Assembly (NCBI GenBank): GCA_025359945.1
Contig: JANYDD010000090.1
Span: 1-36,179 of the forward strand
Length of the DNA stretch: 36,179 bases
From: Bdellovibrio sp.
Lineage (GTDB): Bacteria; Bdellovibrionota; Bdellovibrionia; Bdellovibrionales; Bdellovibrionaceae
Reading direction: 5' to 3'
The translations under genes and the position numbers were made by a program. Below are positions 8,958-24,607 of the stretch, piece by piece (positions within the stretch are counted from its first letter, which is position 1; the number at the start of each line of letters is the position of its first letter). A model generated the notes under the pieces. It saw only the letters and a program-made list of their open reading frames with translations, had not been told where the DNA came from and did not search any database.

Positions 8958-9539
8958 CTACCCCTTGGGTTTGAGCATTTTCTCGATCCGGCTGTCGGGG
9001 ATTAGCCAGATCATTGCAACGATGACGTACAAAGCCAGCGATATTCTGGGTTGCCAAAAGGCAAGTGGGATTGCGACGGAATAAAATCCTAGCGAGATAT
9101 TTCCTTTAAAATCTTTTCCCAGGGCTTTGGCGATCTCTGAGTTTTCACCGTGGCTTGAGACCAGTGAATGACTTAAAAGAGAATACGCAAACCCGGCCAT
9201 CAGTAAAACGGCTCCGTAAAGGGCCACTGGAACTTCTGCAAAATGATTTTCTCCTGACCATGCAGTCACGAATGGAACTAGCGACAGCCAAAACAGCAAG
9301 TGGGCATTGGCCCACAAAATTTGGCCGCTTACGTGTTTCACAAGTTGAAATAAATGATGGTGGTTATTCCAGTAAATGCCGATGTAAATAAAACTAATCA
9401 GATAGCTTAAGAAGACGGGTGCCAGAGGCTTTAGTGCCGAAATTTCGGGAGAGTGCGGAATTTTTAGTTCTAACACCATAATTGTAATTAATATGGCCAG
9501 AACGCCATCACTAAATGCTTCCAGTCTATTTTTGTTCAT
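8958..9539 (-). CDS. TMEM175/DUF1211-type potassium channel family protein
   Basis: 193 residues with about six hydrophobic segments. The N-terminus RLEAFSDGVLAILITIMVLEL contains the FSDGVxAI..T signature of the first helix, which forms the selectivity filter in bacterial and lysosomal TMEM175 channels. Later NNHHHLF and WANAHLLFWLSLVPF match the family's second and third helices. Bacterial members are about 200 residues with one six-helix repeat and assemble as tetramers that leak potassium. An AAGGGA ribosome site precedes the ATG. It is not in an operon; its 3' end lies about 140 bases from the end of the convergent DUF1993 gene, and nothing distinct is seen in that gap. Confidence 0.85.
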   Translation of the reverse strand: MNKNRLEAFSDGVLAILITIMVLELKIPHSPEISALKPLAPVFLSYLISFIYIGIYWNNHHHLFQLVKHVSGQILWANAHLLFWLSLVPFVTAWSGENHFAEVPVALYGAVLLMAGFAYSLLSHSLVSSHGENSEIAKALGKDFKGNISLGFYSVAIPLAFWQPRISLALYVIVAMIWLIPDSRIEKMLKPKG

Positions 9540-9826
9540 CAGAAATTCCCTTATTGAGCGAATGCGAACTCACCGCATCGCTAGCCAGCGATCCTGTTTC
9601 ACGGCGTGGATTCTAAATATCGCTTCGGTTGTGCCGGCTATTCTTTTGACAAAGACAACTTAACCCCGCTTAACCCACCTATGCACATGACGCCAGCAAA
9701 TTCGCCTTGTCGAATATTGTCGACTTGAATGCGCTCCAGTCGAACACGACAGGTAGGTGGCGTCATGTGCATACGTAAGCCGCTTAAGCTACTCTTGAGT
9801 TTTACTTGAGAGCAATTGAATTGGAC
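9540..9826. other. Intergenic region carrying the first mobile-element copy
   Basis: About 290 bases between the divergent channel gene and permease remnant. Its main content is the 106-bp element at 9674-9779 and its flanking 8-bp duplications. A TTGACA on the plus strand at 9646-9651 could be a -35 box whose -10 region was separated by the insertion, but no clear -10 is seen. Confidence 0.45.
9674..9779 (-). mobile_element. 106-bp MITE-like element, copy 1
   Basis: This is a 106-base element with terminal inverted repeats of about 21 bases (18 of 21 match, inner core TATGCACATGACGCC). It is flanked on both sides by the identical octamer CCGCTTAA at 9666-9673 and 9780-9787. The reverse complement matches the copy at 24226-24331 at 105 of 106 positions. 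An internal GTCGA...TCGAC inverted repeat can also pair. It is too short to encode a transposase, so it is presumably mobilised in trans by an unseen insertion sequence that makes 8-bp target duplications. It sits 47 bases before the permease start. Confidence 0.88.
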
Positions 9827-10336
9827 ATGGAAAAAAACAAAAATAAATCCACCCAGATTTTGATTCCAAGGCTGGGGCTTCCAACAGCGATCTTTATCGT
9901 TATCGGCACCATTATTGGTTCAGGAATTTTTAAAAAAGTGGCGCCGATGACGGCCAAGTTACAATCGCCCGGTTTGGTTTTATTTTGTTGGGCGTTGGCG
10001 GGTATGGTCACATTGTTTGGAGCACTAACTTATGCCGAAGTCGCCGGGCGATTGGCTCAGACGGGTGGGCTTTATGCTTATCTGCGATCGATGTTTGGCA
10101 AGCCCGTTGGATTTTTATTTGGCTGGGCTTGTTTCGCGGTGATTCAGTCTGGTTCGATCGCTTCAATCGCCTATGTTTTTGCAGAAGCTCTGTTTGGTCT
10201 TTTTCCATTTTCGTTTTACGGCAAGATCGCAGAGAAAAGATGGGCTGAGGGATTTGGAAAAAATAAACGCTTCTTTAGTTTCGAAAAAAAGAGAACTCAC
10301 TTTTATTTTTTGACGTTACCACGCGCTCAGAGTTGA
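9827..10336 (+). pseudogene. Truncated APC-superfamily amino-acid permease
   Basis: The first about 135 residues match the N-terminus of amino-acid/polyamine permeases: a first helix with GLPTAIFIVIGTIIGSGIF (the substrate-backbone-binding GSGIF motif), a second helix ending in LTYAEVAGRLAQTGGLYAYL, and a third, GFLFGWACFAVIQSGSIAS. After LFGLFPF the similarity stops and about 40 charged, unrelated residues run to a stop at 10336. Complete permeases have about 12 helices and 430-500 residues; no remaining part is seen in any frame downstream. A 3' deletion is therefore likely and the product non-functional. The ATG at 9827 is used; a TTG at 9806 is possible. The mobile-element copy just upstream may be linked to the rearrangement, but this is not shown. 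Confidence 0.8.
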
Positions 10337-23609: not shown

Positions 23610-24607
23610 ATGTTGCATCCTGAAACCCTTCGCCCTGAAGATATTTTAAGGCACGAATTTAAGATTCGCGTGAGTCGCAATCCGCGCTATTCTTTGCGCA
23701 GTTTTTAAACTATAAGCGACCAATCACGGCTAAAGCAGCGGTAAAAATTTCGAACAGTCTTGGGCTTGATCCAAAATTCCATCGCCAGTTTTTAAGTGCC
23801 GTTTTAGCGACCCAAAAAAAAGAATCAAGCCCTTCTTCAAATACAACGCAGGGTTTATCCGATGAAGATTTATACCTTTTGCATCACGAAGAATTTGAAC
23901 TGATCAGTGATCCGCTTCATTTTTACTTCTTAAGTTTGATTGAAACTGAAGATTTTGTTTTTGAAATGAAATGGATCGCCAAACGATTGGGCGTTTCTGT
24001 CATTGAGGCTCAGCAAATTGTCGAGCGTCTTAAAAAAATAAAACTGATCGAAGTCAGCAAAGATGGTCAGGTTTTCCGAAAGGTTCCGCACTGGCGAACA
24101 TCGGATGGAGTTCAAAATCTAGCTTTGCGAAAAGCCCACCGGACGCAATTGCAAACCACTTTGGATCAATTTGAACAAATCAATCTAGAACTTCGAGATT
24201 TAAGTTCGATGGTTATGGCGATTGACTTACGTATGCACATGACGCCACCTACCTGTCGTGTTCGACTGGAGCGCATTCAAGTCGACAATATTCGACAAGG
24301 CGAATTTGCTGGCGTCATGTGCATAGGTAGGGCGATTGATCTTAAAAAACTTCCCCAAGCCAAAGAGAAAATTAAACGCTTTCGTCGTGAGCTTTGTAAA
24401 TATTTAGAGTCCGGCAAAAAACAAGAGGTGTATTCGCTTTGTATTCAACTGATACCCCGAAGTCTTCCTTCAAAATCAAAAAAAAATGAAATGGATCCAA
24501 GGTTTTTTAGTATTGTCTGTTTTTTGCATTCTCCCCTTTGCCCATGGAGGCGGTGGGTATGGAAACGGCGGCTTTGTCATTCTGAAAGCTTCGACAAACT
24601 CCATTGA
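23610..24607 (+). pseudogene. TIGR02147-family regulator, broken by a frameshifting deletion and a MITE insertion
   Basis: From the ATG at 23610 the frame reads MLHPETLRPEDILRHEF, then VSRNPRYSLRSF, the usual TIGR02147 N-terminus, and stops at a TAA near 23706. Similarity resumes in another frame with QFLNYKRPITAKAAVKIS, then NSLGLD, the end of the helix-turn-helix domain, and continues with the family C-terminal domain to LCIQLIPRSL. About 12 codons between the halves seem deleted, with a frameshift. Near residue SSMVMAID a 106-bp element plus 8-bp duplication adds 38 codons before AIDLKKLPQAK resumes. The open frame after 23879 starts only at a weak TTG and lacks most of the DNA-binding domain. 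Its tail runs past the expected end into the next gene. Confidence 0.75.
24226..24331 (+). mobile_element. 106-bp MITE-like element, copy 2, inside a coding region
   Basis: Same element as at 9674-9779 in opposite orientation, differing at one base near the end. It is flanked by the identical octamer GCGATTGA at 24218-24225 and 24332-24339. Its terminal inverted repeats match at 19 of 21 positions. The frame used by the host gene is open through the whole element and begins with ATG-CAC-ATG after two codons. Element plus duplication is 114 bases, a multiple of three. Confidence 0.9.

Follow-up and report, generated by a model that had tools for sequence, protein, structure and literature searches.

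A recently active family of 106-bp transposase-less elements in a Bdellovibrio genome, with a probable IS1595-family partner

Short gene-less repeats in bacterial genomes may be mobile elements or structural repeats of another kind. The window studied here, a stretch of 36,179 nucleotides forming contig C88 of a Bdellovibrio sp. genome, contains two almost identical repeats of 106 bp, and the question that it raises is whether these repeats transpose and, if so, which enzyme moves them. Direct re-reading bore out the two copies reported by the first-pass annotation, one base apart, each lying between its own, different perfect octamer (CCGCTTAA for copy 1 and GCGATTGA for copy 2; Table 1). The copies are on opposite strands and their sole mismatch in 106 positions is at element position 3 (C/T). 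The terminal inverted repeats (TIRs), which had been put at about 20 bp, are present, but their perfect core is 16 bp long (TATGCACATGACGCCA) and sits within imperfect outer ends, which match each other at 22 of 27 positions. The ends of the element are TATGCACATGACGCC, with boundaries CCTACC and CTTACG. No transposase gene is present, the longest open frame being the element's own 35 codons; with its small size and TIRs, the earlier classification as a MITE-type element stands.

Table 1. Positions of the MITE copies and associated features (window coordinates unless a locus is named)
Feature	Position	Strand	Remarks
MITE copy 1	9674..9779	+	106 bp, intergenic
Copy 1, left 8-bp target-site duplication	9666..9673		CCGCTTAA
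Copy 1, right 8-bp target-site duplication	9780..9787		CCGCTTAA
Copy 1, left terminus	9674..9694	+	20/21 bases equal the end of the G029 IS1595-family element
Copy 1, right terminal inverted repeat	9758..9779	-	
MITE copy 2	24226..24331	-	106 bp, 1 difference from copy 1
Copy 2, left 8-bp target-site duplication	24218..24225		GCGATTGA
Copy 2, right 8-bp target-site duplication	24332..24339		GCGATTGA
Copy 2 host gene, DUF4423 (PF14394), stop-to-stop frame	23663..24607	+	domain split by in-frame insertion
IS630-in-MITE loci	L062:1053-2157 (G000:C100); L041, L046, L047, L055		

The two copies belong to a much larger set. The genome to which the window belongs (G000; 2.74 Mb in 106 contigs) yielded 40 scored matches to the MITE at 95-100% identity, and reading the copies locus by locus gave 41 distinct full-length copies, together with truncated ones that stop at contig breaks or at an IS630; the whole-genome search for more copies proposed by the first-pass annotation thus returned them in number, well in excess of what chance would give. 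Perfect 8-bp target-site duplications (TSDs), mostly of different octamers, flank 35 of the full-length copies. The six others depart from this in various ways: in one the duplication is short by one base, another, the most divergent of all, has a single mismatch in its duplication, an IS630 cuts into the end of a third, and the remaining three are close to contig ends, with unlike flanks. Searching the genome for the TIR core with at most two mismatches produced 94 matches, against 0 for a reversed control pattern. Most copies are identical to a consensus (n = 14) or to variants 3C (n = 6), 74A (n = 5) or 30G+74A (n = 5), and as these variants fall into subfamilies, several source copies appear to have been amplified recently. 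No copies were found in the plasmids or the viral contigs searched. The repeats in the window therefore belong to a family of more than 40 tiny elements without genes that was active recently, and the earlier claim of independent, recent transposition is upheld by the different sites and TSDs of these copies and by the finding that none of the other same-family genomes searched contained a whole copy.

Alignment of 35 reconstructed empty sites revealed a target motif of about TRRC-N-[NAAATTTN]-N-GYYA, which is symmetric around the centre of the TSD, spans positions -4 to 13 and has little or nothing beyond. Symmetrised information sums to 4.12 bits, whereas random sites from the same loci give 1.20±0.24 bits (maximum of 1000 samples, 1.94). 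Such symmetry is as expected of a dimeric transposase, in a symmetric complex with DNA, that staggers its cuts by 8 bases.

The identity of the likely transposase is indicated by the ends of the element. A full-length insertion sequence (IS) with the same ends, for which the first-pass annotation had suggested a search, was found in a relative from the same family (G029:C94); it is a complete IS1595-family element of 952 bp, but no 8-bp duplication was seen in its flanks. Its ends are CCTACCTATGCACCTGACGCC and CCTACCTATGCACTTGACGCC, and the left 21 bases of the MITE match them at 20 positions, flush with the element boundary. Its transposase of 291 aa matches PF12762 (DDE; 69.8 bits) and PF12760 (zinc ribbon; 36.4 bits), both above the cut-off. 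Within the IS1595 family, TSDs of 8 bp, the length seen here, are on record for the IS1016 group (PMC10045372). The Bdellovibrio genome itself carries the TIR core with two changes at the ends of contigs C20, C34, C47 and C69, and the DNA beside these ends codes for either the first or the last part of an IS1595-type transposase. All four run off their contigs, which break in repeats, such that only ends and end fragments of this IS are visible and its body is unassembled. Across 27 positions, the MITE left end agrees with the IS ends of its own genome at 22-23 positions and with those of the G029 IS at 24. The MITE differs from the IS1595 elements in its length of 106 bp, the lack of a transposase, an unrelated interior and the outermost bases of its right end (CTTACG vs CCWACC). 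The interior, of about 65 bp, has no match to the G029 IS beyond the ends, and hence a simple internal deletion is unsupported.

On the basis of these sequence comparisons, the element is very probably a non-autonomous MITE that an IS1595-family (ISXO2-like) transposase moves in trans. Such an enzyme would bind the TATGCACNTGACGC ends, make target cuts that are staggered by 8 bases and insert the element, and repair of the gaps after insertion would generate the 8-bp duplication. The MITE may have been derived from an IS of the IS1595 family through replacement or loss of its interior. A lone IS1595-type end (CCTACCTATGCACTTGACGCCGGTAA) was also observed in another genome, at L095:1404 (G010:C116), adjoining an ORF that resembles a Crp/Fnr regulator; no second IS1595-type end was seen within the 1.05 kb read at this locus.

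A different candidate for the parent IS was rejected. At the ends of contigs C20, C41 and C57, about 80 bp of the MITE form the start of a longer element, which turned out to be an IS630-type element (DDE_3, TA target) inserted in MITE copies. Three different MITE copies carry the IS630-type element at one and the same TA, and both of its orientations occur; a fourth copy has it at another TA, close to the end of the copy. The MITE thus seems to serve this element as a landing site.

The distribution of the MITE is very narrow. In a scan of the phylum, with two candidates scored per genome, whole copies were present in only 2 of 368 genomes, namely the Bdellovibrio genome and G122, a metagenome-assembled genome (MAG) from another family of the same order. 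A scan of 84,980 species genomes for the paired ends of the MITE, which may omit records from the window's own genome, returned only JANXMF01, a MAG labelled Pseudobdellovibrionaceae, whose two sites are the two G122 sites. Both G122 copies carry their own perfect 8-bp TSDs, and the 9.2 kb flank next to one of them has no match to the Bdellovibrio genome. The left end of the Bdellovibrio IS1595 (141 bp) occurs at 99-100% identity in these two of the 368 genomes only and at 73-74% in G010 and G029. The MITE and a near-identical IS1595 are, therefore, co-distributed in the same two genomes. This pattern fits a recent joint horizontal transfer of MITE and IS1595 between families, in which the two would have moved together between Bdellovibrionales lineages; alternatively, the sharing may reflect shared metagenome contamination, G122 being a MAG.

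Gene membership of the insertion sites was assigned from coding-potential gene calls, and 16 of 35 sites are inside genes. Since about 86% of the window lies within ORFs that are 100 or more codons long, insertions in genes appear to be depleted. The reading frame is broken in 10 of these 16 genes and remains open in 6; the interrupted genes include those for an IS3-type transposase, a DUF4360 protein and an AAA_14 ATPase. The MITE plus TSD is 114 bp long (3 x 38) and one of its six frames is stop-free, which accounts for the six insertions that read through. One of these, missed by the earlier reader, is copy 2, which with its TSD adds 38 codons in frame to the DUF4423 gene. With the insert present, the match to this domain breaks into two stretches (115.7 bits), and it is a single stretch (127.9 bits) after the flanks are joined; this homology, at the level of the predicted protein, is the sole empty-site evidence. 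Copy 1 lies between a TMEM175-like gene (8961-9539, minus strand) and a truncated amino-acid permease ORF (9827-10333, plus strand), whose start ATG at 9827 is 47 bp downstream of the element. The permease ORF matches only the first 114 of the 427 positions (the first quarter) of AA_permease_2 and is probably a pseudogene remnant. At locus L026 (G000:C69:50306-50411), the MITE is in an NDH-2-like NADH dehydrogenase gene and one TSD is short by one base; either this gene is frameshifted or there is an assembly error.

The in-frame insertions raise the possibility of a protein-friendly palindromic element, like those of Rickettsia, whose open frame is kept and whose 38-residue inserts survive in genes and so shape the placement of copies. 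Rickettsia palindromic elements can give host genes an in-frame peptide (PMC10969869), and the length and stop-free frame of the MITE, the reading through of genes by copy 2 and five other copies, and the position of one of the two G122 copies in frame within a 289-aa ORF are all features that such an element would have. However, the Bdellovibrio MITE mostly breaks the frame when in genes and its copies are mostly outside genes, despite the ORF cover of the window. The six open insertions exceed the expectation of 1/6 (p = 0.04), but selection for in-frame insertion is not significant when target preference is modelled in a target-weighted null (p = 0.11); open insertions thus show no clear excess over chance. 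We consider this explanation highly improbable. A distinct claim, also unlikely, combines a joint and very recent jump of MITE and IS1595 between Bdellovibrionales families (predatory relatives) with working proteins that have gained a 38-residue segment through some of the in-frame insertions, copy 2 in the DUF4423 gene being an example.

Two further explanations concern the nature of the mover and of the repeat. The mover could be the transposase of another IS family that also makes 8-bp duplications, with ends that are similar by chance; the transposase of the Bdellovibrio genome is incompletely assembled and the ends of its IS1595 are not identical to those of the MITE. Against this stand the exact boundary of the match to the G029 ends and the restriction of the MITE and its near-identical IS1595 to the same two genomes, and we give such a coincidence very little credence. 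REP/BIME-like or regulatory hairpin repeats (terminator-like sequences, RNA elements) would account for the strong hairpin potential of the MITE, which is about -47 to -51 kcal/mol for 106 nt. On that view the copies would not be transposons, but this reading is refuted by the perfect duplications at 35 sites, and opposed by the insertions within genes, the symmetric target motif and the lack of an Rfam match within the window; its probability is negligible. Mobilisation in trans by an IS1595-family transposase remains the preferred reading.

The general mechanism is textbook, and the MITE is a real, recently mobile and new example of a well-known kind. MITEPye1 is moved by IS1182-family ISs, with TIRs common to MITE and IS (PMC11578231), while the QMITE1/2 elements of Coxiella are MITEs present in tens of copies (PMC5896051). 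The Bdellovibrio MITE resembles these in being short and non-coding, in having TIRs and target duplications and, as in Coxiella, in reaching tens of copies; the IS family, the ends, the host and the length of the duplication set it apart. No description of an IS1595 MITE or of a Bdellovibrio MITE was found in the open-access literature searched. For the Bdellovibrionales, the family is a clear case of recent MITE activity, with its target preference measured and a probable partner IS identified. Our results document a MITE-IS pair that is near-identical across different families, and a genome in which one small element has disrupted ten genes or more.
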